A stretch of 64,000 nt of DNA. Origin: a virus. The notes beneath the pieces are model-generated. The model was not told the origin of the DNA and ran no database searches. It worked only from the letters and a program-made list of their open reading frames with translations. Position numbers and translations under genes: made by a program. Of the stretch, positions 6,048-46,254 are shown piece by piece (position 1 is the first letter of the stretch; each line of letters opens with the position of its first letter). The stretch lies in the IMG/VR virus record IMGVR_UViG_3300028384_000673, positions 47,560 through 111,559 of that record. One strand, 5' to 3'.

Positions 6048-6055
6048 AACACACC

Positions 6056-6821: not shown

Positions 6822-6853
6822 CATTGACATCCTGAACCTCGTCGATTTATCCA

Positions 6854-22549: not shown

Positions 22550-25500
22550 ATGTTCGCAGACAGAATTAACATCTCGGATAGAGTTGAAAATCAACTTCCC
22601 GAGTTCATTAGGGAAGAAGATCAACAACTTGTCAATTTTCTCTTTGAGTATTATTCCTCACAGGAGAAAACTGGACGCCCATTTAATGTTCTGAATAATC
22701 TGCTTACTTATTTGGATCTAGATGCGTATGATCCAAAAGTTCTTAATTCTGAGACTACTCTGATTAAAGATGTTGATCCTAGTATCGATCATATTGAAGT
22801 AGAACAGATTGATGGTTTCTTGCCGAACAATGGTTCGGTGATGATTGATAACGAAGTCATCTATTACAGTGAAACTGTACGTGGTCCTGATGCTATTTTG
22901 ACTCCTGGCATCAGTCTGCAAGAATTTAACAAGAAGAGACAGGCACTAGAATCTCCTTGGGTTGAATTTGACGGTACTCGTACTACTTTTGACCTCAAAT
23001 TCCTCGGAACTCCCGTATCTCCCGTATCAGCAGATCACCTTGCTGTAACTATTTACGGAGATCTGCTAATTCCTGATACGGATTATACGATTAGTGGTTC
23101 TGAAATCACATTTACTACCGCACCTCGTGCTAGGACTGGTAATGATCAGGTAGAACTGACGCAGATCCTGTATTACATCGGTTTTGCTGACGCTACTGTT
23201 AAAGAACTGACCCTTCCTGCTATTTCTGAACTTGCAGGACAGGATTCGATGACTGTTCAATATGATAATCTTCCGTATGCACCTATTGCTGAGATCGGTC
23301 TGATTATTAACCGTAACGGAGTGCTGCAACGTCCGTTTGATGACTATGTTCTGACGGATAATAACAGTAAAATTAAGTTCTTTGTTAATATAACTCCTCA
23401 GGACACTTTCCACATTCGTTCTATTGAGTATGTGTCTCCATCTGTGGGATCTGGCGCAGAGGCAGTCACCAGAGTTGGTATAAATGGCGAAATTGAAGCA
23501 ATCACTATCAAGAATGGTGGTTCTGGGTACAAACTTAACTTTGCACCCAAAGTATCAATTTTCTCTTCTACTGGTATCGGCACTGGTGCTGCTGCAAGGT
23601 CCCTTGTTAATGGTATTAAGGACGTAAGACTCATTAACGGTGGTCAAGGTTACTCTGCAAACAACCCTCCTGTTGTTAGAATTACCGAACCTAGTGATTT
23701 GATCAATGGTTCTCGTGCCGCTGCTAAAATTACAGTTGACGACACTACTGGTCAGGTTTCTGGAATTGAAATCACCAATTCTGGTTCTGGATATGACTTC
23801 ATTCCTGCTATTACGTTTGTAAATCCCAGCGGTGGTGAAGTTTCTGGTTGTCAGATTGACTCTGAGGGTCGTCTTGTCGTTAATTCTATTACTGTAACTA
23901 AGGGTGGTCTTGGTTATAGCAATCCTCCTCAAATCTATGTTGATCCTGCACCCGAAGATGGTATTAATGCAGAAGTAACTGCAAGTGTTGCTCCTGATGG
24001 AACTCTGTCGGGTGTTACGATTACTAATAGAGGTCGTGGATATACTACTGCACCCAAAGTTCGTGTTATCCAACCTGTTGGTGCTCAGGTTCTTGATGTT
24101 AATGTTGCTAACGGTAGTGTTACTAACATCAACCTGTTGACTGGTGGTAAAGGTTACACTGATGCACCGTCTATCTACATTGTGGATGACCGTAAGGACT
24201 CTGCTGGCGAATTTATCGGTGGTACTGGTGCAACTGCTGTTGCAACTATTTTTAATGGTGCAATTACCGATATTAACATCACCAATTTCGGTGAAGGGTA
24301 TTCTACTACTGAACCACCTAAGGTTTACATCGCAGAACCGCTTTCTGCACAAGCATCTTGTGATGTTGGTTTCGGTGAGGTCACTGGTTGTGTGATTAGA
24401 TCTTCTGGTGAAGACTATGAGGCATCGGCACTACGTGGATGTGCTCGTGGTGTCTCGGATGTAGTCCAATTTGACAATTATGGTAACCAAGTCTATGCCA
24501 AAGAAGAACAACTGAGACAAAGTGACCATAATCGGGGCACTATTGTTCATAACTTGGATTCGACGATCATTAGACAGGTTTTTGACAAGTTCCGTCGTCA
24601 ATATATGCCTACGATCGATATTGACTATTCACAGGTCAATCCGATTCAAGTTATTAAGACTATTAAAGATTTCTACATCTCTAAGGGTACGAAAACTGCT
24701 ACTCAGTATCTGTTTAAGATTCTGTTTGGTGAAGAAGTTGATGTTTTCTATCCCAGAGACGAACTGATCACTCCTTCTGCTGCATCCTGGGTTGTTGACA
24801 CTATTCTTCGTGCAGAATTGATTTCTGGTGATCCTGCTAATCTTCCAAATGCAGAATTGCGTCAATTTGCAGATAGCGTTGATCAAAATATCAAAGACGC
24901 TTCGGTTCTGATCGAAAATGTCATCTCGATTATTGAAGGTACTGATACTATCTACGAATTGACAATTTCGGAGGAAACTCTGAGTGGTGTATTCAAAATT
25001 CCTTATAAAACTGTTCTTGTTGAACCTCTTGACACTGTTGAGAACATTATTACTGTTGACTCAACTATTGGATGGCCTGAAAAGAATGGTACTATCATTA
25101 TTGATGACCAAGAAGTCATTCAGTACAAAGATAAGTCTCTGAACCAGTTTATCGAGTGTACTCGTTCCAAAAATGGCGTTGTAGAAGATTGGGATCCTGG
25201 CACTGATATCTTTTCTGATATTTTCGTTTATGTAAACAGGGGTCAAGATAATGAAGTTAAACTGCGTGTTCTCGGTATTGCAGAAGCAGGCACTACCGTT
25301 CTTGAAGACAGTGGTTCATATTACTTGCCAGGTGATAAGCTTAATGTGGCTTCTTTGGGTAGCAGTGACGATGATGAGCGTTTACAATCATGGTTGTACA
25401 ACGTTAAGAAACTCATCAAGGTCACATCGATTACTCCTGGGGGATCCAATAACCAGACTGCGACAGTTACATGTTCCAATCCCCATGGTTTGCTCGTAGA

Positions 25501-28500
25501 AGACAAAGTTACTATCTACGGTGCCAACCCAGCTGTATTTAACGGAACTTATGAGGTAACTTCTCGACTTAATGATTTTACCTTCACTTACGCAATTCCT
25601 GTTCCTACTCAGATTGTTCCTGAGGGTAATATTCTTCTGTCGGTTGACTTGAACAGAGGTAAGTCTCAGGTTAATTCTATTAACGACGTTATCTCTCTGT
25701 TTACGTCAAATATTCAGAACTCTTTCTTTAATAATGATTACGTTTACGTTGCTGCTTCTGGTCTTCCCAACTATAAGGTTGGTCCTTTCGAGGGTTCTGC
25801 TCTAATTCCTGGTAACCAGCGTAAACTGCTCAGATTCCCCAGAGTAGTCAATACTGTCTCAACTAGAACTACGGTCAAACCTAATAACCCGATTGGATCC
25901 TGGGTTAATGGTGTTGCTGCTTGGGGTTATAAGTCTAAGGACTATGTGACTTTTGGTCCTTTGACTGCAATCGCTATTACCAACAATGGTATCGATTATG
26001 ATGCTGGAAGTAAACCTGCACTGCAAATTTCTGGTGGAGGAGGAACTGGCGCATCAGCATCTGTTACTGTTAACGGATCACTGTTCTCTATTGATGTCAC
26101 CAACGAAGGCAGTGGTTATAAGACCCAACCTTTGATCTCTATTGTTGGTGGTGGTGGATCTGGCGCAACCGCACAAGCAGTTGTCACCAACGGAAGAGTG
26201 ACTCGTATTCTGGTTGAAAACGCAGGTACTGGATATACTTCTCAACCCACTATTTCTATTACTGGTGGTGATGGTATTGGAGCAACTGCAACTGCACAAG
26301 TTCGTGGCCCTATCTCTGCGGTCACCTTAACTTCTAAGGGTTCTGGGTATACTTCTACTCCTGAGATCAAACTGAATTCTGGTGAAGGTGCTCTGGCACA
26401 ACCTATTGTAATTAACGGTCGTATTGTTTCGATCGCTATCATTAACTCTGGTGAAAACTATACCACTGCACCTACTGTCTACATCAATGGTGATGGTTTC
26501 GGTGCTCAGGCACAAGCAGTTATTGGAACTCTGGGTGAAGATAAAGGTAAGGTTGTTTCTATCCAAATTACTAATAAAGGTGTTGGATATACCCAAGGTA
26601 ATACCACTATTCGTTTGGAAGCAGTTGGTCAACTTGCTACCTTTGAAGCAAGCGTATTCCAATGGAATAAGAACTTAGAATATGACCTGAACAGCAAGTA
26701 TGACGTTGCTCGTGGTTATGTGTTTACTGGTTTCAATAATCAGTACGGTGGTGAGTATGGTCACATCTCTGACCCCAAAGAACTGCGTTATGTAGTTGGA
26801 GACAACGTTGTTCTCGATCCACAAACTCAAAGATTCCGTGAGATCGGTCAGAACGAAGCACACTCTCCGATTTTGGGTTGGGCATTTGATGGTAACCCGA
26901 TTTACGGTCCTTATGGTTATATTGACCCGACTGATCAGAACAGTGGTCTTAGAAGAATGCGTTCTTCTTACAAACTGAAAGATGAGGTTGTATATGACAT
27001 CGATACTAACCCCACTCCCGCTAGAACAGATGGTCCTGCACTTTCGACCTATCCTGCTGGCACTTTCGTCAATGATTATGAATATTCTTTCCAGAGGGGC
27101 GACCTAGATCTATATAACGGTCGTTTCTGTAAGACTCCTGATTATCCCGATGGAACTTACGCATATTTCATCACTATCGATGAATCTGAGACGGGTCTGC
27201 CTGTATTCCCTTATATCTTGGGTCCTGAGTACAACTCTGTTGTTGATATCTGGAATCTGAGTCAATCTGCTATTCAAGAGAACATTCCTGCCGACGTTTC
27301 TCGTTTCAGAGATCCATATGTGAATGTTGACATCGATATTGACCGTCAACCTAACCAACGCTCTGATGAATTCGTTACTGAGCGAGAAGGTGACGTTCTT
27401 GTCTTTGAAATCGAAGATACTGATAATGATGGTATCATCAGTCCTTCTGAAATCGCAACTCTCAATGCAATCACCGAAGAAGCGGCATTGCAGATCTATG
27501 ATTACTTCCCGAGAGTTTCTGCCGAGTCCAGAGTGGATATTGAGGTCGAAACTACTACTAAATTTGAATCTGCACAGATTGATGGATTTGTGATCGAGAA
27601 TCCTGGTGTTTCTTATCAGGTTAACGACACTCTCTTCTTTGATAACACCGATACTGATGGTTTTGGTGCATCTGCCCAAGTTGAGTCAGTTACTGGTCGT
27701 CCAATCAGTGCTTATCGTAAGGAAATCATCAATGACCAACCTTATGGCAAAATTACCACTGAAAGTGATCATGAACTGATTGCACAAGACGAAATTATCG
27801 TTACTTCCAAAGTTATTACTGATAATACCAATAAGCGTTTCTACATGTCCGTTGTGACAGGTATTGAGAGTATTACCGTCGATCAGATTGGTGTTGGTTA
27901 TAGTGAGGCACTTCCTCCATCTTATGAGATCATTTCTACTCAGGGTCAGGATGTTGAGTTGGATATTAAACTCGATGTCACTACTGGTAAGATTGATAAG
28001 GTAGAGATCATTAATTCTGGTTTTAATTACTCAACTGATAATGTTCCTCAAATTAGAGTATCTCACCCCCAACAATTTAAGAAGACTTATTATTGGGTTA
28101 ATCAATATGTAGATAGTGGTGTAAATGGTGGCACATTTGAAATTTTTGATATTGCAACTACAAAGGATCGTAGTACTTACGTTTGTGGTGAACTTACTCA
28201 ATCTAATGGCGATACTGCCGCTTTCTTGGCAAAATTCTCAGACTTGGGTAGTCTAGTTTGGGATAGAACTCTTCTGCCTTCTTCTAGCAGAAAGGTGGCG
28301 AGATTCCGTCGTATGTATATTGATGAGACCTCCGAAACCAATCATCTGATTTATGTGGTAGGCGAAAGTGAATCTCAAACTGAATCTGGATATAATCCCG
28401 ATATCTTGGTCGCCAAATATGAATCTGGTCTCAATAATGCTAATAATCCCGAAGGTATCGTAAGATTCCAAAAAGAGATTGCTGGTGTCTCTGGTAGTAC

Positions 28501-31500
28501 TCGTCGTGATTATGCTGGTGATATTTACCTGGATGATGAGCAAAGAGTATATCTCTGTGGTTGGACTGATACCAACTCTCCCGATCCTGATGATATTTGG
28601 GTTATTCAACTTAATAACCAAGGTGATCTGATCGAGAAGCGTAAGTTTGCTTCTGACACCGAAGGTGAACAGATGCACCAACTGTATTACATTGGTGATA
28701 ACAAAGTTATCTTTGCTGGTATTGATCTCGATAACAATGATCTCATGTTTGGTGAGATGTCATATGATGGTGCAAATATTGAATTGAATTACGTTAAGAG
28801 ACTTGCTATTAGTGGTGGTCAGGTACAACGACCTCAGTTTGTTCTCGATTCTTATAATGATCTGTTCTTTGTATGTGATATGTGGAATGGCACCAAACAC
28901 TATGGTGTTGCATTCTTCAAGATTGCAATGTCACAGATCAGATTGACTGCTGCAACCCCTGAATATGAGTTTTCTAAGATTCTCGCTCCTAGCGTAACAT
29001 TTGAATCTATTCAACACGCTGGTATCACTCTCGATGAGTTTGATAATGTCAATGTCATCACTCATATCCAGTATGAGGATAACAATCAGCAGGCAGTTAT
29101 TAACTACTTTAAGTATGACGGCACTTCCCTTTACAAGTCTAATGTGATTCGTGGTGAGTGGAATACTACTGATAGTGATACTGACTATGGTCTTGGATTC
29201 ACTGCATTCCAGCATGGTGTAGATAACTCTGGTGACGTTATTCTTCCTATCAACGTACAGAAATCTGTACAGTCTGCTGTATATCGTTTCAACGATGGTG
29301 ATGACTTGTCATTCGATGCAACTAAGCAAAAGAAGGCATACACTACTACTGGAACTGCTACTAGAAGCACTGCTCAGAAGAAGTTTGGTGCATCTTCCCT
29401 CGAACTTGCTTCCAACAGTAGTTTGAATTGGCAAGACTTTAATAATGATGAGTGGTCTGTTGTCTTCTGGGCAAGATTGACTGCTGCTCACGCTTCTACC
29501 AATCCTCAAATGGAAATGGTTACTGCTGTTGATGATTCTGGCAGTAAAGTACGATTCATCATCAATGGTGATTCTACTGATGGTAATGACGGTAAGTGTA
29601 CTCTTATCATTGATGATGGTAATGGCGGTGGAACCACTGTCCATTCTGTTGGTTCTACTTATTTCTCCACCATGGAGAACGAAGGTTGGCACCATATTGC
29701 TGTGGTCAAGGAAGAACCCACTCTTGGTTCTTATGTATATTCTGCATTCTTCGATGGAGTACAGGTTTGTACTGCAACTAGAACCGAAGATATTGCAATG
29801 GACGATCTGACTATTGCTAACAATGTTGGTGCTCCTGCTGCTAATAAGTCATTCAGAGGATTTATTGATGATCTTGTAATTGAAGGTAGAGCAGTTTATA
29901 CTGGTGCTTCCCTGACCGTTCCTACTGAGCGTTATAGAATTACTACTAAGAACTCTGGTATGGATCTGGTTAAGTTTGACCGATTGCATAGTAAGCGTGA
30001 TGACTATCAGATCGAGACCCAAGGTGTGGTATTCAATGAGAATACTAATCTCAATATCAACACACTGAATAACCCAGTCATTACTGTTTGGAATGAAGGT
30101 TCTTCTGGTTTGCAGATTCTTGACTACTCCGATGTAGTATCAACTTTGTCTCCTGGAACTTACACTTTCCAAGAGACTGTCACCACCTTTACTTCTAAGA
30201 CCTCTACTATTCCTTCTCCACTTGGTAAGAGACTTCTCATCAGTCCTAACGTGGTGGCAAAGTATTACGTTAGAGATGCTTCTTATTCTAAGATTGATAA
30301 TGTCAAGCAGTTCACCTTTAACCAAAATATCAAGTTCACCAAAGGAACGACTATTGAACAATTTAACGCCCAGGGTGTAACTCAGGCATATGGCACTATT
30401 GTTGAAACTCCTACTGGAACGGTTGATAATCCTGGTTTGGGTAACACTTATAAGATCGGTAAGATCTTTGGTACTTTTAATAATGATGATAGATTCAGAA
30501 ACTCAACTGGTGAAGAGAACACTATTGACGGTCAAGTGTTTGCGGTCAAGCGTTCGCAAGATGAGTGGGTAACAAACAAAGCATATTCTGTGGGCGATCA
30601 GGTTTATAGTGACGGTAAGATATATGCTGCTACTAATAACGCTACTTCTGGTTCAACTGCTCCTGAGCATAGTATCGGCATTGTAACTGATGGTGCTGTT
30701 CTCTGGAACTACATTAGTGCCTCTGGAACGCTGCAAGTTTCGCTCGCTAATTTCCCGTGGCCGAAACCTGTGGAAAACGAATGGGAAACCAATCGTTCAT
30801 ATGCTATCAACGACTTTGTATACTTTGGTCGTTATAAGTATCAAGCAACCACTGCTGGTCTTTCTGGTTCTACTAGTCCGACGCACACGAGTGGTATTGT
30901 TAGTGATGGAAATGTCAGTTGGCAGTACATTAGTACATATGATCCACTCTCTGATTACGCACGTTTCCGTCCGTATAGAGAAGAAGATTATACTGTTCAG
31001 ATCATGGAGGTCTACTCCGATTCTGACTTCATCGTTGGTGACGTAGTTTCTCTTGGCGGATCGATTACTGCTGCACCTAATTCGGATAATCCTAAGATTG
31101 CTGATCTTACTGGTTTGAGCAGTGTTAAAGAAATTAAACTCACTGTTAATCTTGATAAGGACATTCTTAGAACTGCTGAGGGTAGATCTGATCTCATCTA
31201 TGCAACTGCTGTCACTCCTCACAACTTTGAGGATGGTGATATCCTGTTCGTTGAAGGATTCTCAACTAACGAGTTTAACGGTTCATTCTTCGTTAAAGAA
31301 GTCTTCTCTTCCAGAGATTTCATCTATACACTTAGAGCAACTGCTTCTCAGGATCCACAATTCGCTCAGGGTGCTATTTCTCGGGTGAAGATCTCTTCTA
31401 AGCACCCAACTCTACAACTGGTTAGAAATCACTCTTATATCTTTGATATGAGCGATGCTTCTAACTTCGGTTATTACTTATCTTTCTCTGAGGATAATCA

Positions 31501-34500: not shown

Positions 34501-37500
34501 GACTGAGGGAACTAAATTCCAAAACCAGACTGGTCTTGCTACGGGTGAAGTCGTCAGAGTGGATATGGATGCATCTCCACCAGTTCTGTACTACCTGAAA
34601 TCCAGTGAGGCAGACATTGCAGAGGATGATGTAATCCAAGAGTATACTTCTGATCCTGTAAATCCTGAGCAAAGAATTCTTGGCACCAAAACTGAAACCG
34701 TTGCTGGTGAAATTAGATTGGGTGATATTGTTGATACTCTGACTATCAATAAAGGTTCTTCTTTCTTCGGTATAATCTTTGAACGTCTGATTTCGTTGAC
34801 TAATGCCAACGTGATTGTTGATGATATTTCTAAGACTACCATTACTCCTACTGAACTTTCCGACGCTGATCAACGTATCAATGCGGACTTCCTGGATTTT
34901 GAACAGGTTCGTTCTACTGAGATTGAGTATGAAAATCTGACTGGCGGTACTATCGCTGCTGATGATGTTCTGCGCTCTATCACGTTTGAGTATGGCAACA
35001 CTGTTACCAACTCTAAGAACAGATGGAAAGATGCTGGTCGTATGATCGGTCTGAACCGTGATGAGATTGTTGATTTTGCTAACGCAGAAATCGCCGTCGA
35101 GCATCCTGGTTTCTACTATCCTGGTGATAACACCACTGATCAGTGGTCCAGATATGCTGATGCTTATCGTCTGATTCAGAAGAACAGAGAGTATATCATC
35201 GCCAAGGCATATGTCCTGATGACTGCTGAGTATCCTGCTCTTTCTGTTCCTTCGGAAGATAAGTGCAAGCGTGACATTGGTTACTTCATCGATGCTCTTT
35301 CCTTTGATACTTATTCTGGTGGCACTGTTTATACTCGTAAACTGGCACAGAAGTATTTCTCCACTGATGGAACTCAATTCCTCTATGTAAATAACGAAGC
35401 AGAAGCGACTGAGTTTGCTTTTGAGAAAGCAACTGAACTCATGCGTCAGGCACTCAGAAATGATCTGGATGGTTCTGAGGTTGTTGGTGGTGTTACTTAC
35501 ATCTTCTATAACGAGAGAACTACTGGTGGATCTGGTGGTACTGGTATCACTGCTGATCCTTCGCCTGGTAATCCTTATGGCACTGCTGGTTCCAATGAGC
35601 AGAACTATGGAACCAATAACTGCTCTGACGTACAATCTGCGCTGCAAACTCTGTTTGATAACATCTCAGTTATCCTGCTTGCTGGTTCTCTCGCAGACCT
35701 ACTTGATGAAGTTACTCCAACTCAATACAGCGCCAATGAAATCAAGTGTCGTCGTGACATCGGTCTGCTGCTTGACGCAATTCAGGCAGATATTACTGAT
35801 GATGGCAACTACAAGACTGTTGAATTTGTCCGCTCCTACTTCGATGCCTCTGGTTCTCCGATCACCAACGGTCTCGTAGGTGAAACTGCTGAGTCCCTCA
35901 CTGCATTCAGAAAAGCAGGTGAACTCTGCCGTATGGCAATTAACAACCTACTGTATTCTCAGGTCAATACTAGAACAGCAGAAGCAGGTTACATGCTGAA
36001 AGATCCAACTACGTACGCTGGTCCTTACCTGGGTGCAACTGGATCTACTCTGCAAGAGTTTGACGTGTCTAATGCCGTTTACACGCCTGGTACTGGCGTG
36101 ATGGTTCTGACTATCGGTACTCACTCACTGACTACCTCAGATTCTCTGACTATCCGTCCTTACTCTTTGAGATTTACTTGTGCAAGTGATAGTAATGCAT
36201 CGTTCCACGATTATCCTCGTACTGGTGATCCTGCATTCAATACTGCTCTGAGTATTACTGCAACTACTGCAACCACAGTTACTGTGAATGTTGGTGATGC
36301 TGGAACTGCATCTGGTCAGGCACACACCTTTATCAGCGCACTGGATAATGCAGTGTTTGTTGGTGGCGGTACTGAGGCAGCATACTATGATCCAAATTAT
36401 GCTAGCGGTAGAAACGAAAGCATTCAGCATTGTGCTGATGTTCAGGCAGGAATTCATACCTTGGTTGAAATTGCTGCTACTGCAATCGGTGCTGGTAACC
36501 TCAACAACGTCAATGCTCTTTCCACCATCACCGATGGTACTTATAATGAGAATGAGAACATTCGTGCATTGAAGATTGCATACAAAGATCGTGCAGGATC
36601 TGGATTCTTCATTCCTGGCGATACTCTCAGAGGTTATTCTTCGGGTGCCTCTATGACAGTCAAAGGTGTTAACTCTGGTTTGAAGTGGGTCTTCACCAAC
36701 TCAATTACTGGTACTTTCACTGATAGAGAATGGATTACCAACTCTAAACTGACTGCTAATGGCACGATTGGTTTGACCAAGTTAGAGAAGAAGACAGGTA
36801 CTCAGTCTCTACACTTCCAAACTCACACTGGTCTGACCCACGCTCTGTCTGATGTTAACAATTTCGGTACTGCCGACTTTACCATTGAGATGTGGATTCG
36901 TCCTTCTACTAACCCTCAGACTGGAATCAAGTATCTGTATGACAGCAGAACTCAGATTGCAACTCTGACTGGTTCTCCTGTTCTGTACTTAGAAAACAAT
37001 TCGATTAAGTTCTGGTTGAATGGTACTGATCAGATTTCGGGCGCACATAACATGACAGTTGACACTTGGCATCACGTTGCTGTGTCTAGAACTACTGGTA
37101 TCACTAAGGTTTGGGTTGATGGCGCTCAGGTTGGTGGTGATTATTCTGATAGCAACAACTATCTGGAACGTCCGTTCAGAATCGCAGCGGGTTGGGATGG
37201 TACTAATACCTTCCAAGGTCATATAGACAACCTTTTGATTCATAAAGAATCCTTGTATTCTGCTACGTTTACTCCTGGATCTACTTATCCGACGAACACT
37301 GCAAATGTGTCTTTCGGTATGAGCATGGAGACTCCAATTATCGTCAGTACCGAAGAGTCTTACGCTAAGTTCACTGGTCAGACCAACTCTGCTGCCACTG
37401 CTAAGAAGGTCAACTATGATGATCGTGAAATCACGATTGAAGATATTGATCTTGCACGTGATGAGCATCGTAAGTGTGCTGACATGCTGGAACTGAACCT

Positions 37501-40500
37501 CGATTGGATTTCAGAAACTGCTGTTGGTCTTATGGCAGCGAAGTATCCCGACTTCGTAATTCCTGGCGACACTGACACCAGTGAGCAGGGTACTAACAAG
37601 TGTATTCGTGATACCAAAGAGTACATCCTGAAAGCAATCATCGCTGACATTCGTTACGGTGGTAACTACAACAGCGTGATCTCTGGTAGAGGATATCTCA
37701 CCAAGTCTGGTGGTCTGAACTACGTCGGTAATGAACTGCTGCAATCTGTATATGCTTGGGATGAACTTGCTAATGTGATGAACTTCGTGATCACCACTAC
37801 TAGCACGGATCTTGAAAAGTATCCCGCTACCGATGGTACTAAGTATAGCGACATTCTGCGTATTCCAAACAACTTTACTGCTCCTGCATCTCAATCAATT
37901 CAGGACGAGATCAATGGTCTGTCCAATACGATTATTGATATCCTCTGCCCAACTGGCGATAGATTCCGTGATGGCGGCGATGCTATCTGGAAAAACCGTG
38001 ATTACATTGCTGAGGAAGTTGTTGGTTATCTGCAAGATAAGTATCGTGCAACCATCACTGGACCTCTGGGAGAAGAGCGTGAATTTGACTTCTTGGTTAT
38101 GCCTGGTTATGGCGAACCCTATTGTGTGCGAGATATCAAGAAGCACATCTTGCCTGCTGTAATCACTGACTTGCTGACTGGCGGTAACTCTTCTGTTCAG
38201 TACGTCATTGATCAATATCTCAATACTGACGATCAAGTTCTTCACGTTGAAGATGAACTTAGTGCAATGTTGGACGCATTTGAGTTTACTAAGAAACTCT
38301 GCCATCATGCGATCAACCAAACTCTGCTGACTAATGGAACCACTGCTTCTGGTCTTGGTATTCCTGCAAATCTTCAAGACGAATACTATGTTGCCGTCTG
38401 GACTGACGAGGAAGCATACAGAGACACCACTGTCACTATTGACCCAGAGGCACCTAATCAGGCTCGCACTGGTCCTAACCATGATCGCCTCATGGATGCT
38501 GCTGACATGCTGGAACGTAACAAGTATGTGATTGCATGGGAAGCAGTTCACACCATGAACGATATGTCTAAGCATATCGACTTTACGGTCCCTGGCGGTC
38601 GTAAGAACTGCACCGATGATGTGGTCGATCTCATCGAATCCATGGTACATGACCTTCGCATGGGTGGCAATTCCAAGACTTGGGACGCTGCTGAACTTTA
38701 TCTAAATGATGAGGATGATACTCTCCTCCACATCGAAGGTGAAGAAGATCAGTCGGTTTGGGTGTTGAAGTGGGCAATGGATATTGCGATCCTGACCATG
38801 CGTAATGGTTTCGGACGTGAGAATCTCTACATCTATCAGGAAGAGAGTGGTATTGATGGTAGCGTTGGTGGCGGTGGTGCTGAATCCTTTGATGAGGTTG
38901 AAACCAGCAGTTACGAACAAAATGCTGTACGTGACCGCTTCATTGATGCTGCTAATATCATCGAAAGAAACATCCGTTTCATCGCTGAGGAAGCATTCCA
39001 TTTGGGTCAAGTGCAGTATCCTTCGCTGGTTATTCCTGGTGGATCTGGCAACTGGGTTCACGATATTACCGACATCTTGGATGCCCTGCAATGGAACCTC
39101 CGTCATGGTGGTAACAACAAGGTCTTCCATACTGCTGAACTCTATGTGAGTAATAGTGCTCTATCGCACATCTCCTCGCAGGTTGCCGAATCTACCTGGA
39201 TCTTTGACAAAGCGATCGAACTTGCTGTTGATGTGATGCAAAATGATACCATCACTGTTGCTGGATCTCATGGATACACTCAGAAGTTCTACGCTGATCT
39301 GGACTTCGCCCCCTACAACACCAATGATTACTCTATCACTGTTGATGGCGCACCTGACGCAACTCACGGCACTTGTGCTGATGTGAGATCTGCAATGATG
39401 ACTTTGATGGATGTTGTGACTGATACGCTTGCAACTCCCGCTAGCATCACTGACGGTACTATCACTAAGAGTCTGCCGAACATCTGGCCTGTAAAGTATT
39501 CCCCCGACATGGTTCATCGTGACCTGTCTGTCACTTACGACACCAGTGCAACTGGTGGTTGGAATACCACTTGCGAGCAGGTTGCTTCTAGCATCGAAAC
39601 TCTCTTCGATCTGGTTATCGACACCATCGAGAAAGCACGTTCTGCAACTCCTTCACCTAATTATTTGACCACTGTTACTAGAACTGGTCCTTCTACGGGC
39701 AACACCAACTACCAGTTGTATACTTGCTACAACGTTGTTGATGCCTCACACACTCTGTTCGATCTGATGATTGAAACTCTGGGTGGTGGATCATTCTCCG
39801 ATCGTACTGCTGCTCGTTATCTCACCTTTAACAAACACGCTATTGTTGATAAGGCATTCACTGAGACTCAGAGTCAGTATCCTGGCACTGCTGTTACCGA
39901 AGACTTTGGTCACAGCATCATGAAGGCAATGATCTATGATCTCAACACTGGTGGTAACGGTGGAATGATGAAACTGGCGAACACTTGGTTCGACGGTGAA
40001 GGTCAATTTATCGCCTTTGATGGTATTGTCCGTCAGCATCTGTTGTTCTACATGCTGAGACTCTCCGAAGCATCGAAGAGAATCATGTATGATCAGAATA
40101 ATACTGCCGAATGGGGAGTTGATAACAGACATTTCCGTTATCTTGATGACACCCGTATGGATGCCATTGAGTATAGATTCGAGTACGAGCAAGAGTCCAC
40201 TGAGTTCCGTCTGGATGCTTCCTGGAACGTTGCTAACTTTGCACTGACTAGATCTCAGACGCCTGCTAACAATAAGGTTACCTGGATTAATAGCACTGAC
40301 GCAACTAACCTACAAAACCTTTATGACGAGGGTACTGATTGGAACACTGATCCTGATCTGGTTCTCAACACGCCTAGCGTCGAAGTTGGATTTGAAAGAA
40401 GAGAGAATCGAGTTAAGATTACTCGCCCGAACTTCTATTCTCGTGGAGACGTTCTCACTTACGTGCCCGCATCTAGCGATATTGAAAGTGCATTCTCTGG

Positions 40501-43123
40501 TCAATCTTGGTTCTATGTGCTAAATGCAACTCCAACTTACTTCGAGATTGCACGAGAAATTCGTCACGACGCACGTTACAGTGACTTTGATGTTGACACT
40601 ACAACTACTGGTCAACAGCAGTTTAAGGTTGATGTTCGTTCGGGAATTGTTCGTGAGACAACCACATATGGTGAGCGTGATATCGATACACCAATTAGTG
40701 GTGGATTTAATCTCGCAGATGTAATTGTTGGTAGTAACTCAGATTGTAGTGGTGATGTTATCAGAACTACTAACAATGAAGCAGAAGTTATTAAACTTTA
40801 CAAAAAGTTCAACCTTGAAACTGCATCTGCACGATTCACAAATGGTGAACGTGTCAACGTCAGCGGTAATCCCTCTAACTATGGTTTCGTTGTTCAGACT
40901 TCTGTCCTTACGGGCGACAACACTGATGAGGGTTGGGTTTATCTAGAAAATATCACGGGCACTATCTCCGATGGTGATGACCTCGTGGGCGTAGACAGCA
41001 ACTCGACTGCAACTGTTGATGGTGTTTCATATGATCGTATGCTGATCAATGTCAGTAGAGGTGCATTTGCTCAGGATCAAATGATCTTCAATAAGGGCAA
41101 TGGTGCTGAGGCAGACATCAAACTTTATGAAAACTCTGCTGGTGCTCTCGTGGGTAACACGGGTGGTCGTATCACGATCGACATTGAGACTTTACAAGAT
41201 AACTTTGTGGATGGTGACATTATCTATGGTTCTACTACTGACACTATTATTGATATCGCAGATATCAGAGTTGTGGGTCTGGATCAACTAGAACTCAATC
41301 AGTACGTGCATGGAACCCGTACCGTTCAAATGCAAATTGCTTCGGTCACTCGTGACCAAGGATTTGAAGGTGACTTCAATCCTGGCGATCTGGTTTACTT
41401 GCTACAAGGCACCATCCCCAAAGAACCTGGTTGGACTGCTGTGGTTTCGGAATATAACTTCGATTCGGAGAATTCCATTCATAATATTTGGTTGTCTAAC
41501 TTCCACCCCTATGGTCAGGCAGCAGACGGCACTACAACTATTGATCCAAACCTCGCACAGGGTAGTGCAATCGGTAAGTTTGAAAACCTCAACAACTTCC
41601 CGATTATCCTTGCTAACATCAGCACCGTCTCGGTAACTAACTACACTTCTTACGGTAGAGTCGCAGGTAAGACTATCAGTGGCAACACTGGTCGCCTGTG
41701 GTTGGCAGATGTCGTGGGCAACTTCCCGAACGGTATGTCGATTATTTCTGACTACGGTTGGAAGGCAGGTGTTACTAAGTCTAAGGATCTCATCGGACGT
41801 TGTGATCGCTTCTTCCGTGGATTCGATGGAACTGCAACTTCCTTCAAACTCACTGTTAACAACGGCGAAGCATACTTCCCCGATCCCGCTGGACACATGC
41901 TCGTGTTCGTCAATGGTGTACTGCAACCACCTGGTGGTACTGCTGCTTACACAGCGTTCTCTGACCAGATTCAGTTCACTGAACCTCCGACCATTGGTTC
42001 TGAATTCATTGGTTACTACGTGGGTAAACTGAGACAACTTGATGATATTTCGTTCGAGTTTGACTCTCTACGTGCATCCTTCAACCTGAAATATGACGGC
42101 GGTTTCTATTCTCTGACTCTAACGGATGGTGTTTCTTCTAACACTATCTTGCCTGAGAATAACATCATCGTCTCCCTTAATGGTGTGATTCAGGAACCTG
42201 GCGTTGGTTATACCTTGGTTGGTTCTAGAATCATCTTCGCTGAGATTCCTCGTGCAGGGTCTACATTCGTTGCCTTCTCCTACATCGGTTCTGACGCTGA
42301 CGTGATCGCAGCAACTATCGTGCCTCCGATTGAAGCAGGTGATATTCTGCAAATTGAAGGTGAGGCAGACGAACGTGAAGTCGCTCTGATCGAATCCTCG
42401 AACTCTCTGATCACTTTCGAGTACACAGGAACTGTCAAGGGTCGTGGCGCTCAGGCGATTGCGTCTATCAAGTCTGGTGAACTCACCAAGGCAATCATTA
42501 CCGCACCTGGTGATGGTTACACTACTCGCCCGAACGTGGATGTTATTTCTTCCTCTGGTTTTGACGGACGTGTACGTGCTCTGATGGGTATTTCTAGTAT
42601 CGTTGTGAAGAACAGAGGTATTGGATACGAGCAACCTGTGGTTGACGTTGAAACTACTGTTCCTGATGATTATGTTGCTCCTACTGGCGGCGCAATCAAT
42701 GGCGGTTTTGATACCTACGCAGGCGAGGGTACTGATGCTCAGGGTAATCCTATCGTAATCATCCCTGGTTACATCCAGATCACTTCACAACCTGTGAACG
42801 TGACTGTGAACCAAGGTCAGACTGCATCCTTCACTGTCCTTGCTGATTTTATCATCAGTGCGACTAACGAGGAAGGAACAACTGCACTGAACTATCAGTG
42901 GCAGCGCAAGCAGTATGGCGAAACCAACTGGCAGAACGTAACTGGTTCTACATCTGCAACTTACAACTCTAATGCTGCTGAACAGGCAGACGATGGTGAT
43001 GAGTTCAGAGTAGCAATCACTGCCGCAGGCGCTGAACCTGCTTATTCTAACTCCGTGATTCTTTCGGTTCAGACTGGTGCTACGGTTCTGACTGGATTTA
43101 GTCCCACTCAGATCTTCCAATAA
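22550..43123 (+). CDS. Giant mosaic baseplate/tail structural protein (6857 aa)
   Basis: This single uninterrupted frame of 6857 codons starts 5 nt after gp6. By eye it is a chain of modules. Residues 1-310 carry a baseplate-type N-terminus. GGxGY beta-repeats lie at about 320-625, 1140-1357 and 3110-3337. A segment at about 657-750 contains FYISKGTKTATQYLFKILFG. A YHYH-domain-like region lies at 1380-1557, a beta-propeller-like region at 1850-2244 and LamG-like regions at 2241-2464 and 4704-4918. Two tandem carbohydrate-binding-like units lie at 2671-2797 and a degenerate cupredoxin-like unit at about 2955-3047. Repeated NGxxQxP units recur along the chain. Alpha-helical repeats span about 4157-5877, and an Ig-like domain lies at about 6741-6844. 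Gene order suggests a baseplate-attached fibre or arm that contacts the host. No catalytic motif was found. Module borders are estimates. Confidence 0.85.
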   Translation: MFADRINISDRVENQLPEFIREEDQQLVNFLFEYYSSQEKTGRPFNVLNNLLTYLDLDAYDPKVLNSETTLIKDVDPSIDHIEVEQIDGFLPNNGSVMIDNEVIYYSETVRGPDAILTPGISLQEFNKKRQALESPWVEFDGTRTTFDLKFLGTPVSPVSADHLAVTIYGDLLIPDTDYTISGSEITFTTAPRARTGNDQVELTQILYYIGFADATVKELTLPAISELAGQDSMTVQYDNLPYAPIAEIGLIINRNGVLQRPFDDYVLTDNNSKIKFFVNITPQDTFHIRSIEYVSPSVGSGAEAVTRVGINGEIEAITIKNGGSGYKLNFAPKVSIFSSTGIGTGAAARSLVNGIKDVRLINGGQGYSANNPPVVRITEPSDLINGSRAAAKITVDDTTGQVSGIEITNSGSGYDFIPAITFVNPSGGEVSGCQIDSEGRLVVNSITVTKGGLGYSNPPQIYVDPAPEDGINAEVTASVAPDGTLSGVTITNRGRGYTTAPKVRVIQPVGAQVLDVNVANGSVTNINLLTGGKGYTDAPSIYIVDDRKDSAGEFIGGTGATAVATIFNGAITDINITNFGEGYSTTEPPKVYIAEPLSAQASCDVGFGEVTGCVIRSSGEDYEASALRGCARGVSDVVQFDNYGNQVYAKEEQLRQSDHNRGTIVHNLDSTIIRQVFDKFRRQYMPTIDIDYSQVNPIQVIKTIKDFYISKGTKTATQYLFKILFGEEVDVFYPRDELITPSAASWVVDTILRAELISGDPANLPNAELRQFADSVDQNIKDASVLIENVISIIEGTDTIYELTISEETLSGVFKIPYKTVLVEPLDTVENIITVDSTIGWPEKNGTIIIDDQEVIQYKDKSLNQFIECTRSKNGVVEDWDPGTDIFSDIFVYVNRGQDNEVKLRVLGIAEAGTTVLEDSGSYYLPGDKLNVASLGSSDDDERLQSWLYNVKKLIKVTSITPGGSNNQTATVTCSNPHGLLVEDKVTIYGANPAVFNGTYEVTSRLNDFTFTYAIPVPTQIVPEGNILLSVDLNRGKSQVNSINDVISLFTSNIQNSFFNNDYVYVAASGLPNYKVGPFEGSALIPGNQRKLLRFPRVVNTVSTRTTVKPNNPIGSWVNGVAAWGYKSKDYVTFGPLTAIAITNNGIDYDAGSKPALQISGGGGTGASASVTVNGSLFSIDVTNEGSGYKTQPLISIVGGGGSGATAQAVVTNGRVTRILVENAGTGYTSQPTISITGGDGIGATATAQVRGPISAVTLTSKGSGYTSTPEIKLNSGEGALAQPIVINGRIVSIAIINSGENYTTAPTVYINGDGFGAQAQAVIGTLGEDKGKVVSIQITNKGVGYTQGNTTIRLEAVGQLATFEASVFQWNKNLEYDLNSKYDVARGYVFTGFNNQYGGEYGHISDPKELRYVVGDNVVLDPQTQRFREIGQNEAHSPILGWAFDGNPIYGPYGYIDPTDQNSGLRRMRSSYKLKDEVVYDIDTNPTPARTDGPALSTYPAGTFVNDYEYSFQRGDLDLYNGRFCKTPDYPDGTYAYFITIDESETGLPVFPYILGPEYNSVVDIWNLSQSAIQENIPADVSRFRDPYVNVDIDIDRQPNQRSDEFVTEREGDVLVFEIEDTDNDGIISPSEIATLNAITEEAALQIYDYFPRVSAESRVDIEVETTTKFESAQIDGFVIENPGVSYQVNDTLFFDNTDTDGFGASAQVESVTGRPISAYRKEIINDQPYGKITTESDHELIAQDEIIVTSKVITDNTNKRFYMSVVTGIESITVDQIGVGYSEALPPSYEIISTQGQDVELDIKLDVTTGKIDKVEIINSGFNYSTDNVPQIRVSHPQQFKKTYYWVNQYVDSGVNGGTFEIFDIATTKDRSTYVCGELTQSNGDTAAFLAKFSDLGSLVWDRTLLPSSSRKVARFRRMYIDETSETNHLIYVVGESESQTESGYNPDILVAKYESGLNNANNPEGIVRFQKEIAGVSGSTRRDYAGDIYLDDEQRVYLCGWTDTNSPDPDDIWVIQLNNQGDLIEKRKFASDTEGEQMHQLYYIGDNKVIFAGIDLDNNDLMFGEMSYDGANIELNYVKRLAISGGQVQRPQFVLDSYNDLFFVCDMWNGTKHYGVAFFKIAMSQIRLTAATPEYEFSKILAPSVTFESIQHAGITLDEFDNVNVITHIQYEDNNQQAVINYFKYDGTSLYKSNVIRGEWNTTDSDTDYGLGFTAFQHGVDNSGDVILPINVQKSVQSAVYRFNDGDDLSFDATKQKKAYTTTGTATRSTAQKKFGASSLELASNSSLNWQDFNNDEWSVVFWARLTAAHASTNPQMEMVTAVDDSGSKVRFIINGDSTDGNDGKCTLIIDDGNGGGTTVHSVGSTYFSTMENEGWHHIAVVKEEPTLGSYVYSAFFDGVQVCTATRTEDIAMDDLTIANNVGAPAANKSFRGFIDDLVIEGRAVYTGASLTVPTERYRITTKNSGMDLVKFDRLHSKRDDYQIETQGVVFNENTNLNINTLNNPVITVWNEGSSGLQILDYSDVVSTLSPGTYTFQETVTTFTSKTSTIPSPLGKRLLISPNVVAKYYVRDASYSKIDNVKQFTFNQNIKFTKGTTIEQFNAQGVTQAYGTIVETPTGTVDNPGLGNTYKIGKIFGTFNNDDRFRNSTGEENTIDGQVFAVKRSQDEWVTNKAYSVGDQVYSDGKIYAATNNATSGSTAPEHSIGIVTDGAVLWNYISASGTLQVSLANFPWPKPVENEWETNRSYAINDFVYFGRYKYQATTAGLSGSTSPTHTSGIVSDGNVSWQYISTYDPLSDYARFRPYREEDYTVQIMEVYSDSDFIVGDVVSLGGSITAAPNSDNPKIADLTGLSSVKEIKLTVNLDKDILRTAEGRSDLIYATAVTPHNFEDGDILFVEGFSTNEFNGSFFVKEVFSSRDFIYTLRATASQDPQFAQGAISRVKISSKHPTLQLVRNHSYIFDMSDASNFGYYLSFSEDNQYKLEYSFNVIEREGTPGLSSATEIPIVKFTIGGEVTNITYYYDPSRTGATSPVGTNSFIDVIKTPFDGKFTISEVLSDTEFRFPLLHEPEFTNAEITEDDNDIPRSSYSTTSLKAIGPINTIKLISPGGFYKKLPVISDIASDRKIEKVRITNGGTEYQPGVYTQVPILGDGEGGLVQITVENDEEIGSGTITDVQLTDPGKGYTTASIDVDGIEGILGSTLSGSGAELEVVIPSEGSGAAVFLTGRQIGKIKTLKNNEFGYGYSHDYTLRPEIAFPINLQLFNTSILSQIKITNPGSGYTSAPSVIISGGGGSGAEAEAVVKNNRLSEVLIKNPGAGYSSQPSVTLKSEFTYVVNLDLNYLQFNFPHGITTGAEVQFRADAIGSTVGVLPKPSSVGLTALSSSQTYYAIAGNANGLETDQLRFALTRVDAESGNFITFLTQGDGRQVLLTEVFGGQAEAVVETSRFLEGEEVFQGESYELASAFGVVSENDGWQIEPKILKVTNPNGDFVVGGKVQGVISRASGLIDNINIAKGVLNIDAITKTPGRFIDDVGKPSEIVQKIQDSFFYQNFSYVVKSKIPINRWKTQILENNHPVGFSMFGQLELTGGKDVSGRKVDAGFTKQVNINEYTNVNQITSFGAAQPIYSTFNNSEVLFRKKRLTNSEEILTSIVKKIDDISILFNGERKSFPMTVEGENQIVKANQLLVTLNGIIQSPGSSYQVVGNNIIFAEPPKPDSKITYRNVEFDILPITRLNLNTIGGIFPELGDTVNGFESEARAKVVATGATSIDIVEITGGPFQLNERIDVSRTGFSALIGSIDNSITKLYLENVGGTFTQTALGGVRITGQTTGATATIFTVNPTDVTVDVIDMANGYFERGEEITFFGLQYGAEILNVDSVNYKTIFEFGETISNLDGDKAIIEETNQDLDGNISDKLVLSKTSGTAEYETGAYNVLLNDVIYSASSNIAAKITAISPYRDPIVSINLVRPTSAGGGSWSTLTEGTKFQNQTGLATGEVVRVDMDASPPVLYYLKSSEADIAEDDVIQEYTSDPVNPEQRILGTKTETVAGEIRLGDIVDTLTINKGSSFFGIIFERLISLTNANVIVDDISKTTITPTELSDADQRINADFLDFEQVRSTEIEYENLTGGTIAADDVLRSITFEYGNTVTNSKNRWKDAGRMIGLNRDEIVDFANAEIAVEHPGFYYPGDNTTDQWSRYADAYRLIQKNREYIIAKAYVLMTAEYPALSVPSEDKCKRDIGYFIDALSFDTYSGGTVYTRKLAQKYFSTDGTQFLYVNNEAEATEFAFEKATELMRQALRNDLDGSEVVGGVTYIFYNERTTGGSGGTGITADPSPGNPYGTAGSNEQNYGTNNCSDVQSALQTLFDNISVILLAGSLADLLDEVTPTQYSANEIKCRRDIGLLLDAIQADITDDGNYKTVEFVRSYFDASGSPITNGLVGETAESLTAFRKAGELCRMAINNLLYSQVNTRTAEAGYMLKDPTTYAGPYLGATGSTLQEFDVSNAVYTPGTGVMVLTIGTHSLTTSDSLTIRPYSLRFTCASDSNASFHDYPRTGDPAFNTALSITATTATTVTVNVGDAGTASGQAHTFISALDNAVFVGGGTEAAYYDPNYASGRNESIQHCADVQAGIHTLVEIAATAIGAGNLNNVNALSTITDGTYNENENIRALKIAYKDRAGSGFFIPGDTLRGYSSGASMTVKGVNSGLKWVFTNSITGTFTDREWITNSKLTANGTIGLTKLEKKTGTQSLHFQTHTGLTHALSDVNNFGTADFTIEMWIRPSTNPQTGIKYLYDSRTQIATLTGSPVLYLENNSIKFWLNGTDQISGAHNMTVDTWHHVAVSRTTGITKVWVDGAQVGGDYSDSNNYLERPFRIAAGWDGTNTFQGHIDNLLIHKESLYSATFTPGSTYPTNTANVSFGMSMETPIIVSTEESYAKFTGQTNSAATAKKVNYDDREITIEDIDLARDEHRKCADMLELNLDWISETAVGLMAAKYPDFVIPGDTDTSEQGTNKCIRDTKEYILKAIIADIRYGGNYNSVISGRGYLTKSGGLNYVGNELLQSVYAWDELANVMNFVITTTSTDLEKYPATDGTKYSDILRIPNNFTAPASQSIQDEINGLSNTIIDILCPTGDRFRDGGDAIWKNRDYIAEEVVGYLQDKYRATITGPLGEEREFDFLVMPGYGEPYCVRDIKKHILPAVITDLLTGGNSSVQYVIDQYLNTDDQVLHVEDELSAMLDAFEFTKKLCHHAINQTLLTNGTTASGLGIPANLQDEYYVAVWTDEEAYRDTTVTIDPEAPNQARTGPNHDRLMDAADMLERNKYVIAWEAVHTMNDMSKHIDFTVPGGRKNCTDDVVDLIESMVHDLRMGGNSKTWDAAELYLNDEDDTLLHIEGEEDQSVWVLKWAMDIAILTMRNGFGRENLYIYQEESGIDGSVGGGGAESFDEVETSSYEQNAVRDRFIDAANIIERNIRFIAEEAFHLGQVQYPSLVIPGGSGNWVHDITDILDALQWNLRHGGNNKVFHTAELYVSNSALSHISSQVAESTWIFDKAIELAVDVMQNDTITVAGSHGYTQKFYADLDFAPYNTNDYSITVDGAPDATHGTCADVRSAMMTLMDVVTDTLATPASITDGTITKSLPNIWPVKYSPDMVHRDLSVTYDTSATGGWNTTCEQVASSIETLFDLVIDTIEKARSATPSPNYLTTVTRTGPSTGNTNYQLYTCYNVVDASHTLFDLMIETLGGGSFSDRTAARYLTFNKHAIVDKAFTETQSQYPGTAVTEDFGHSIMKAMIYDLNTGGNGGMMKLANTWFDGEGQFIAFDGIVRQHLLFYMLRLSEASKRIMYDQNNTAEWGVDNRHFRYLDDTRMDAIEYRFEYEQESTEFRLDASWNVANFALTRSQTPANNKVTWINSTDATNLQNLYDEGTDWNTDPDLVLNTPSVEVGFERRENRVKITRPNFYSRGDVLTYVPASSDIESAFSGQSWFYVLNATPTYFEIAREIRHDARYSDFDVDTTTTGQQQFKVDVRSGIVRETTTYGERDIDTPISGGFNLADVIVGSNSDCSGDVIRTTNNEAEVIKLYKKFNLETASARFTNGERVNVSGNPSNYGFVVQTSVLTGDNTDEGWVYLENITGTISDGDDLVGVDSNSTATVDGVSYDRMLINVSRGAFAQDQMIFNKGNGAEADIKLYENSAGALVGNTGGRITIDIETLQDNFVDGDIIYGSTTDTIIDIADIRVVGLDQLELNQYVHGTRTVQMQIASVTRDQGFEGDFNPGDLVYLLQGTIPKEPGWTAVVSEYNFDSENSIHNIWLSNFHPYGQAADGTTTIDPNLAQGSAIGKFENLNNFPIILANISTVSVTNYTSYGRVAGKTISGNTGRLWLADVVGNFPNGMSIISDYGWKAGVTKSKDLIGRCDRFFRGFDGTATSFKLTVNNGEAYFPDPAGHMLVFVNGVLQPPGGTAAYTAFSDQIQFTEPPTIGSEFIGYYVGKLRQLDDISFEFDSLRASFNLKYDGGFYSLTLTDGVSSNTILPENNIIVSLNGVIQEPGVGYTLVGSRIIFAEIPRAGSTFVAFSYIGSDADVIAATIVPPIEAGDILQIEGEADEREVALIESSNSLITFEYTGTVKGRGAQAIASIKSGELTKAIITAPGDGYTTRPNVDVISSSGFDGRVRALMGISSIVVKNRGIGYEQPVVDVETTVPDDYVAPTGGAINGGFDTYAGEGTDAQGNPIVIIPGYIQITSQPVNVTVNQGQTASFTVLADFIISATNEEGTTALNYQWQRKQYGETNWQNVTGSTSATYNSNAAEQADDGDEFRVAITAAGAEPAYSNSVILSVQTGATVLTGFSPTQIFQ
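35040..40105 (+). repeat. Array of alpha-helical repeats within the giant protein
   Basis: Seven copies of a 70-120-residue unit have a core like C-x-RDI-x3-L-x-A-x3-D-x3-GGN-x5-A-x2-YL, then an acidic HxE and a helix. They are near 35040, 35680, 37450, 37960, 38476, 38925 and 39810. Most are preceded by a helix of the form DA-x3-I-x2-N-x3-I-x2-EA. A second helical motif, C-x-DV-x6-TL-x-D, occurs at about 35617, 36420, 39360, 39560 and 39720, with a weaker copy near 37885. A LamG-like unit (36660-37300) interrupts the array. Confidence 0.75.
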
Positions 43124-44772: not shown

Positions 44773-46254
44773 ATGGCAAAACAAGGTATTGGTATTGGTT
44801 CTTCGGCGAATGACGGCACTGGCGATACTCTTCGTGATGGTGCTATCAAAGTCAACGCCAACTTTGACGAACTGTACGACAAGCTTGGCGACCAAACTAA
44901 TATCCTGTTTGATGTTGCTTCTGCTACTGAGGGACAGGTTCTCAAATGGAGTGCTTCACCCTCTGGTGCGTTCAGAGCAGGTAACTTCGATCTGCTTACT
45001 GGCAACTTAGACACCAACGGTAACGACATCGTATCTGATGGTACTGATGATATCGTCATCCATCAAACTGGTACTGGTGATATCAAATTGTGGGGTGGTG
45101 GATCTGGTTCTGCATACACCTATATTGATGGTGATGATGGATACCTCAAATGGTATGCACCATATGCTGAACTCGTAGATCTTCCCGATGCAAGCAATCA
45201 TCATGGTATGTTTGCTCATGTCCATGGCACTGGAAAAGGATATGTTGCTCACAATGCTCAGTGGATCCCTCTGGTAGATGAAACCCAAAGCATTTCTGTT
45301 CTTTCTGATGTAGACACCACAGTAAATGGTGGACCTTCTGATGGTCAGGTTCTGAAATGGGTTGCTGCTAATAGCAAATGGGAACCTGCCAACGATGAGC
45401 AAGGAACTGGTGGTGAAGGTGGCACCACACAGAATCTTTTCGAGACTGTTAATGCCGATACTGGTACTACTACTGCTTCTGCTGCTAATGATACCCTCAT
45501 TATTGCAGGCGGCACTAACATCTCCACTACTCTTAGTGGTGATACTCTTACTATTGATATGACAGGCACCTTGGGTGACCTGAACCAGAATGTATTCACT
45601 ACCCTCGGTGCTGACAATGGCACTACTACTGCAACTACGACTACTGACAGTCTGACATTCACTGGTGGAACTGGTATTACTACCAACCTGAATGCTGGTG
45701 CTATTACTATCACTAACGATTCACCAAACGTAGTTCAAAATGTCCTCCAAAGTCTTGCAGGAGACACTGGTTCGTATACTGCTAACGCCGCTGATTCTTC
45801 TGTCACGATTGCTGGTGGCACTGGGATCACTACTGCGGTATCTGGGTCAACGCTTACTATTACTAACACTGTCGCTTTACCCAGTATCAACGAAGGACAG
45901 TCCCTCATTCGGGGAGCATCTGCATATGAAGGAGTAGCATCTCCTACTCTGAGTTATGACTTCACTGCTGCTGACAGCAGTAACTACACAGTTAATGGTC
46001 CTGGTATTAGTAGTGCAACAGATCCTACAATCTATGTGTATCGTGGATTCACATACAGATTCAACAATGAAACTGGCGCATCCCACCCACTAGAAATTAG
46101 AGTTTCTAATGGTGGTGCTCAGATTAGTGGAACCTCAGGTTCTATCACTGGTGTCCAGTATTGGACAGTCCCACAGAGTCTTGCTGCTGGCACAACATAT
46201 GTGTATCAGTGCAACATTCACTCGTCTATGGTCGGCAATATCGTAGTGGTCTAA
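44773..46254 (+). CDS. Tail-fibre-like protein with C-terminal cupredoxin domain (493 aa)
   Basis: This 493-residue protein's first 40 residues (IGSSANDGTGDTLRDGAIKV, then NANFDELYDKL) are a familiar T4-like fibre or baseplate attachment sequence. Residues about 215-390 are Thr/Gly-rich beta repeats with GGTGITT units. Residues about 418-493 look like a cupredoxin: YVYRGFTYRFNN, SHPLEI with His438, then YQCNIHSSMVG with Cys480, His483 and Met486. His, Cys, His and Met are the four type-1 copper ligands of plastocyanin-like proteins. Whether copper is bound is unknown; the fold could also serve as an adhesin. It has its own late promoter and overlaps the next gene by one base. Confidence 0.75.
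   Translation: MAKQGIGIGSSANDGTGDTLRDGAIKVNANFDELYDKLGDQTNILFDVASATEGQVLKWSASPSGAFRAGNFDLLTGNLDTNGNDIVSDGTDDIVIHQTGTGDIKLWGGGSGSAYTYIDGDDGYLKWYAPYAELVDLPDASNHHGMFAHVHGTGKGYVAHNAQWIPLVDETQSISVLSDVDTTVNGGPSDGQVLKWVAANSKWEPANDEQGTGGEGGTTQNLFETVNADTGTTTASAANDTLIIAGGTNISTTLSGDTLTIDMTGTLGDLNQNVFTTLGADNGTTTATTTTDSLTFTGGTGITTNLNAGAITITNDSPNVVQNVLQSLAGDTGSYTANAADSSVTIAGGTGITTAVSGSTLTITNTVALPSINEGQSLIRGASAYEGVASPTLSYDFTAADSSNYTVNGPGISSATDPTIYVYRGFTYRFNNETGASHPLEIRVSNGGAQISGTSGSITGVQYWTVPQSLAAGTTYVYQCNIHSSMVGNIVVV

Follow-up and report, generated by a model that had tools for sequence, protein, structure and literature searches.

The baseplate locus and its giant gene

The window, as we call the whole 64,000-nucleotide stretch of DNA analysed here (G000:C1:47560-111559), is the final 64 kb of a 111,559-bp IMG/VR record. 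Because that record contains both a match to a photosystem-II reaction-centre gene and a gene of the cpeT family, it derives from a cyanophage. The window carries a run of baseplate genes in the order gp25, gp6, a giant gene, a YHYH-domain protein, a gp9/10-like protein, a wedge protein, gp8 and a DUF4815 protein (Table 1), and the order gp25, gp6, giant, virion protein, gp9/10-like and gp8 recurs in P-RSM6 and, over the portion read, in S-WAM1 and S-SZBM1. The YHYH domain of the gene following the giant resembles the giant's own, which suggests a duplication. The gene adjoining gp8 (positions 49714-57153) encodes a very large, structural-looking protein of 2479 aa (DUF4815, E = 4.3e-63; PHROG 358), and positions 57707-64000 encode a protein that overruns the contig end after at least 2097 aa and has an Mtd_N domain (Major tropism determinant N-terminal, E = 6e-12) and PHROG 697 repeats.

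Table 1. Features of the baseplate locus and of the giant gene (positions in the window; residues are those of the giant protein)
Feature	Position	Strand	Remarks
gp25 baseplate wedge (PF04965)	19919..20332	+	
gp6 baseplate wedge	20334..22544	+	
Giant virion gene, gp7 slot, PHROG 701 family	22550..43123	+	6857 aa
GGxGY repeat region, conserved N-terminal part	23462..24349	+	
T4-like gp7 match, residues 704-731	24659..24742	+	on gp7 residues 733-760, E 0.048
YHYH domain PF14240, residues 1398-1545	26741..27184	+	Pfam E 1.5e-29
Weak beta-propeller repeat	28493..28573	+	SBBP E 0.0037, below cut-off
LamG domain 1 (PF13385)	29426..29893	+	E 6.9e-10
CBM5/12 carbohydrate-binding motif	30563..30649	+	E 3.9e-6
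Module 1, residues 4201-4305	35150..35464	+	CKRD (Cys4239)
Module 2, residues 4360-4467	35627..35950	+	CRRD (Cys4400)
108-aa stretch, residues 4495-4602	36032..36355	+	absent from S-WAM1 and S-SZBM1; module gain or loss
LamG domain 2 (PF13385)	36845..37255	+	E 1.6e-17
Module 3, residues 4972-5084	37463..37801	+	CIRD (Cys5018)
Module 4, residues 5138-5258	37961..38323	+	CVRD (Cys5192)
Module 5, residues 5313-5420	38486..38809	+	CTDD (Cys5354, no Arg)
Module 6, residues 5463-5566	38936..39247	+	WVHD; Cys absent here, present in S-WAM1, S-SZBM1
Module 7, residues 5751-5852	39800..40105	+	no Cys; degenerate in relatives too
Conserved C-terminal part, residues ~6040-6857	40667..43120	+	weak Ig-like match at end
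Second YHYH-domain virion protein, 533 aa	43146..44747	+	
gp9/gp10-like baseplate-fibre connector	44773..46254	+	
Baseplate wedge-like protein	46272..48140	+	PHROG 22827/708
gp8 baseplate wedge	48175..49710	+	

The 20.6-kb giant frame runs from ATG to stop with zero internal stops, and the 6857 codons given for it in a preliminary description of this DNA were exact. One co-linear frame is also present in six isolates, standing alone directly after gp6 in S-WAM1 (6737 aa, YP_009325074), S-SZBM1 (6619 aa, YP_010656691), P-TIM40 (7351 aa, YP_009188174), ACG-2014d (6817 aa), S-SSM4 (6932 aa) and P-RSM6 (8573 aa, YP_007675165); in the first five, at 6619-7351 aa, it is uninterrupted, and separate genes or a join at this place were not encountered. 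The same description held the product to be a single mosaic virion protein, exceeding every T4 structural protein by far in size, and both statements are borne out: homologues are annotated as virion structural proteins, the S-SZBM1 orthologue has been detected in virions, and the size is as stated, yet ordinary here, the PHROG 701 profile itself spanning 6136 positions. The giant is almost certainly one intact virion protein.

The giant itself belongs to an already known family, PHROG 701 ('virion structural protein'), annotated "baseplate wedge initiator" and situated in the gp7 slot. Each of the seven 1000-aa segments matches the PHROG 701 profile, and the matches follow one another from profile position 2 to 6134, with weaker patches in segments 5-6; the first 700 residues used as a query matched 399 phage records, nearly all of them cyanophages. 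The Kyanoviridae giants of this family share with it the locus after gp25-gp6, the size class and co-linearity. Against the S-WAM1 giant, identity amounts to 76% for residues 1-4494 and to 66% for residues 4603-6857. Residues 1-1750, 3000-3750 and ~6250-6750 are conserved, and the variable blocks at 1750-2750 and 3750-6000, together with the 108-aa insertion that sets the window's giant apart from those of S-WAM1 and S-SZBM1, emerged from a comparison of relatives for module gain and loss that had been proposed as a check.

Placement in the gp7 slot had been missed in the preliminary description. A profile of residues 1-1100 gave as its sole PDB match at E<=1 a T4-like gp7 (9f4a), faintly and at the corresponding position, and the Pfam family Baseplate_wedge (PF23786) matches residues 699-739 with E = 8.1e-4, below the cut-off. 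Relatives are annotated 'baseplate wedge initiator', and the P-HM2 counterpart is annotated 'gp7'. T4 gp7 (1032 aa) shares with the giant its place beside gp6 and one short corresponding sequence match; however, the giant is six to seven times longer, there is no significant full-length similarity, and T4 lacks the helical modules described below. The gene order, the annotation of relatives and the faint gp7 match together make it probable that the giant is orthologous to T4 gp7.

Most of the domains that had been proposed from the letters alone were recovered by profile searches (Table 1): nine copies of GGxGY/A motifs, mainly at residues 323-557 and 1164-1206, the YHYH domain, two LamG domains, and a carbohydrate-binding motif that lies barely above the Pfam cut-off. 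The propeller is represented by a weak match alone, and its region found zero matches among PDB sequences; the C-terminal Ig-like assignment is likewise weak and unproven (E = 0.14).

Seven phycobiliprotein-like modules

Iterated profiles resolved residues 4201-5852 into seven full copies of a module of ~105 aa. The "helical array" noted beforehand in this region thus stands, as this repeat; its phycobiliprotein-like nature had gone unrecognised. The module consensus comprises an Asn and a Glu in the first helix, followed by K-C-x-R-D-(I/V)-G-x-x-x-D-A-x-x-x-D-L-x-x-G-G-N and then a Tyr. The same module order is found in S-WAM1, S-SZBM1 and three metagenomic relatives, all of which keep the cysteine that module 6 of the window lacks. 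Other giants contain four to nine copies, and more are present in cyanophage 'short tail fiber' proteins (PHROG 4527; S-PM2, Syn1, S-RSM4), which have the same modules and are encoded by a separate gene near the baseplate-hub cluster, outside the gp7 slot. An array of 23 modules at a period of ~108 residues, with CxRD in 23 of 23, lies in a metagenomic phage protein of 4363 aa (L027:545-13636). Half-module repeats of ~36-42 aa, made of first helices alone, precede the full modules at positions 35021-35155 and at similar places in relatives, and up to three consecutive half-module helix repeats occur in fibre proteins.

A profile built from 95 modules was compared with 177,635 distinct PDB sequences, and the 60 best matches listed were phycobiliproteins without exception, led by C-phycocyanin alpha (E = 9.1e-6). 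In these alignments the C-x-R-D of the module falls on the bilin-binding C-x-R-D of the phycobiliprotein chains. Profile-profile comparison with 159 cyanobacterial phycobiliprotein frames gave E = 4.5e-10 (probability 96.7) across the entire module, and the window's seven modules alone reached E = 1.2e-6. An AlphaFold2 model of the module, computed without templates and from sequences of the window and viral contigs only, was confident (pLDDT 90.4, pTM 0.83), and all 50 nearest PDB folds listed were phycobiliproteins, with a Foldseek probability of 1.00 and TM scores to the query reaching 0.77; the Foldseek E-values are only ~0.02 because the module lacks the N-terminal helices of phycobiliproteins. 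A tandem-pair model was weaker (pTM 0.65), and its high-probability fold matches were still phycobiliproteins.

Single modules are less readily recognised. The Pfam family Phycobilisome (PF00502) matches 18 of the 95 (best E = 3.9e-5); the modules of the window score 16.6-18.2 bits against a cut-off of 22.2, one S-RSM4 module exceeds it with 24.1 bits, and the modules of L027, L030, L025 and L026 have no Pfam match at E<=0.01. A Pfam scan of S-RSM4 would reveal one phycobiliprotein-like module. On the profile and fold evidence the modules very likely share common descent with phycobiliproteins. The two resemble one another across the helix-B to helix-G region, in the C-x-R-D, in the GG after the bilin-motif helix and in the predicted fold of the module, as seen with C-phycocyanin alpha and beta and phycoerythrin. 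They differ in that the module is truncated (~105 against ~162 residues, without the N-terminal, dimerisation helices), is repeated within a virion protein, and has an additional conserved Asp and Asn (D-L-x-x-G-G-N). What is new here is that the helical array of the giant consists, by sequence profile and predicted structure, of seven modules homologous to phycobiliproteins; in the open literature searched, no description was found of virion modules that descend from phycobiliproteins and retain the bilin site.

Conservation of the bilin-attachment motif

The conserved C-x-R-D of the modules coincides with Cys84-x-Arg86-Asp87 of phycobiliproteins, which are the chromophore cysteine and two chromophore-binding residues. 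Among the 95 modules the Cys is present in 86, the Arg in 75 and the Asp in 91. The modules contain 103 cysteines altogether, 86 of which occupy the one column aligned to Cys84, and 73 modules have exactly one Cys; since the conserved Cys is alone, a disulphide within the module is impossible. In the window the full Cys-x-Arg-Asp is retained in four of seven modules (1-4); module 5 keeps Cys and Asp, and modules 6 and 7 are without Cys. That three of the window's seven modules lack the full CxRD counts against a pigment.

Distribution of the modules and of CpeT

A two-module query matched 119 of 50,697 phage records, all of them cyanophages bar one marine virus, and found none in the plasmids searched. 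Whole-record scans, with shorter contigs left out, detected the modules together with a CpeT-family gene in 21 of 29 records (the window's record, 18 reference genomes and two near-complete IMG/VR genomes) and neither in the other eight (P-SSM2, S-CRM01, S-SM2, S-SSM7, P-TIM68, HTVC008M, T4 and Ma-LMM01). The CpeT match is weak in ACG-2014d, S-SSM4 and P-SSM7, where it rises above the cut-off only with its pieces summed. On a gp6 tree covering all but one of the 29 records, no more than two changes are required for the joint presence, nearly one clade-level event; the co-occurrence is therefore suggestive and no independent proof, and we rejected it as too weak for a statistical proof. Two other candidate partners were set aside. 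CpeS, the S-type lyase, was found in none of 18 records. Bilin reductases occurred in all five Prochlorococcus-isolated module phages tested and in S-SSM4, and in none of the other Synechococcus phages tested; with only seven of 18 records positive, and one present in P-SSM2, which has neither modules nor CpeT, a bilin reductase is not a strict companion.

The surroundings of cpeT were read in seven genomes, and every time the gene was next to, or not far from, genes for the baseplate hub or tail fibres. In the window's genome the baseplate hub/tail lysozyme gene begins two bases after cpeT and is followed by virion and fibre genes; cpeT likewise precedes the hub gene in S-WAM1 and Syn9, precedes a YadA-domain protein and fibres in P-HM2, and stands upstream of the module-bearing fibre, at a distance of a few genes, in S-PM2, Syn1 and S-RSM4.

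Proposed role of the giant and competing interpretations

As far as architecture and descent are concerned, pigment excluded, we hold with good confidence that the giant is a wedge protein of the gp7 slot with phycobiliprotein-descended modules. It would occupy the place of T4 gp7 in the baseplate wedge of a Kyanoviridae cyanophage, between gp6 and the gp8/gp9-10 block. Its N-terminal ~1000 residues would most likely anchor one copy per wedge, as the position and the faint gp7 match suggest, and the remainder would plausibly project as an arm bearing the YHYH, LamG and carbohydrate-binding domains and the seven truncated phycobiliprotein-fold modules. The LamG and CBM domains may bind the cell surface, and their presence makes it reasonable to suppose that the giant recognises glycans. 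Long tail fibres are reported absent from S-SZBM1, S-WAM1, P-RSM6 and P-TIM40 (PMC9146016), so the giant may assume part of their role.

Beyond architecture, some modules could receive a linear tetrapyrrole on the CxRD cysteine, helped by the phage CpeT-family protein, and the tail would then be a pigmented, perhaps light-responsive organ affecting attachment. That any such module carries bilin in virions is a tentative proposal, which we rate at less than even odds, and we are equally tentative about its wider form, in which many T4-like cyanophages would bear bilin on baseplate-arm and fibre modules that a CpeT-family lyase, expressed along with the tail genes, would load. The link to the lyase is not straightforward, since the T-type lyases of hosts (CpeT/CpcT) act at Cys153/155, the other beta-subunit cysteine, and not at Cys84 (PMC10452541). 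Several cyanomyoviruses, P-HM2 among them, are documented to adsorb in a light-dependent manner (PMC7112961, PMC7238727, PMC2984593). P-HM2 and S-PM2 both carry modules, and so do most cyanomyoviruses examined, so that the link is compatible with these reports and not discriminating; that module bilin causes light-dependent adsorption is, in our judgement, unlikely. S-PM2 was reportedly among the phages studied by Jia et al. in 2010.

If the bilin proposal were true, the virion would be a chromoprotein, a pigmented and potentially light-sensing virus particle of a categorically new kind, whose pigment could underlie the light-dependent adsorption of cyanomyoviruses such as P-HM2. It would address two puzzles: why bilin lyase and synthesis genes (cpeT, pebS, pcyA) occur in cyanophages, even those of Prochlorococcus, which is without standard phycobilisomes, and why light is required for some cyanomyoviruses to adsorb. 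Even without bilin, phages would have recruited a light-harvesting globin as a building block of their tails.

The competing interpretation to which we give an even chance accepts the descent of the modules and regards them only as rigid helical spacers of the tail arm, with no bilin, the C, R and D being structural and the phage cpeT an ordinary auxiliary metabolic gene whose product acts on the phycoerythrin of the host. Long tandem arrays between lectin-like domains, such as the 23 modules of the metagenomic protein, and copies without Cys fit such spacers, and the usual explanation of CpeT is that it boosts the pigment of the host (PMC2984593, PMC10452541). Packing alone, however, hardly accounts for a lone, near-invariant Cys accompanied by R and D at bilin-site positions, with no partner Cys for a disulphide conserved; in addition, cpeT sits among tail genes, and it is also found in phages of Prochlorococcus.

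A convergent likeness, in which a generic helical bundle happens to contain a CxRD motif, is very unlikely. All-helical repeats readily give false profile matches, and most single modules fall below the Pfam cut-off; against this, the best PDB sequence matches and folds listed were exclusively phycobiliproteins, the modules are restricted to cyanophages, and in a control run the profile-profile match (E = 1.5e-9 unmasked) persisted with the CxRD masked (E = 2.6e-5) and vanished on reversal (E = 0.21) and column shuffling (best of 40 shuffles, E = 0.017). On these profile and fold controls we rejected an origin as unrelated, ordinary helical spacers. Slightly less probable still is that, in place of sensing light on the virion, the modules serve to bind or imitate parts of the host phycobilisome or to take up free bilins in the course of infection: the homology to phycobilisome subunits and the confinement to cyanophages would suit this, but the proteins are virion tail parts that stay outside the cell at attachment, and the modules also occur in phages of Prochlorococcus. 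The least probable reading is that the frame is an assembly join, for which nothing speaks and which the single co-linear frames of the isolate genomes rule out, or that its product is cleaved into several functional proteins, for which one can cite the 13.5% coverage of the 6619-aa S-SZBM1 orthologue by 71 peptides whose positions are not given, against its listing in virion proteomics as one 724-kDa protein (PMC9146016).

The preferred reading, a gp7-slot wedge giant with phycobiliprotein-descended modules, is accompanied by two minor observations on the surrounding genes. A 2OG-Fe(II) oxygenase gene overlaps cpeT upstream of the hub gene in the window's genome (L234:3297-4374; G000:C1:27296-28373), and such oxygenases, which in several of these phages are neighbours of fibre genes, may act on tail proteins and modify them. 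The S-PM2 record (NC_006820) lists 16 tRNA genes inside the short-tail-fibre frame (L031:12368-17195); these annotations look misplaced, since ARAGORN finds zero tRNAs within that frame and nine just upstream.
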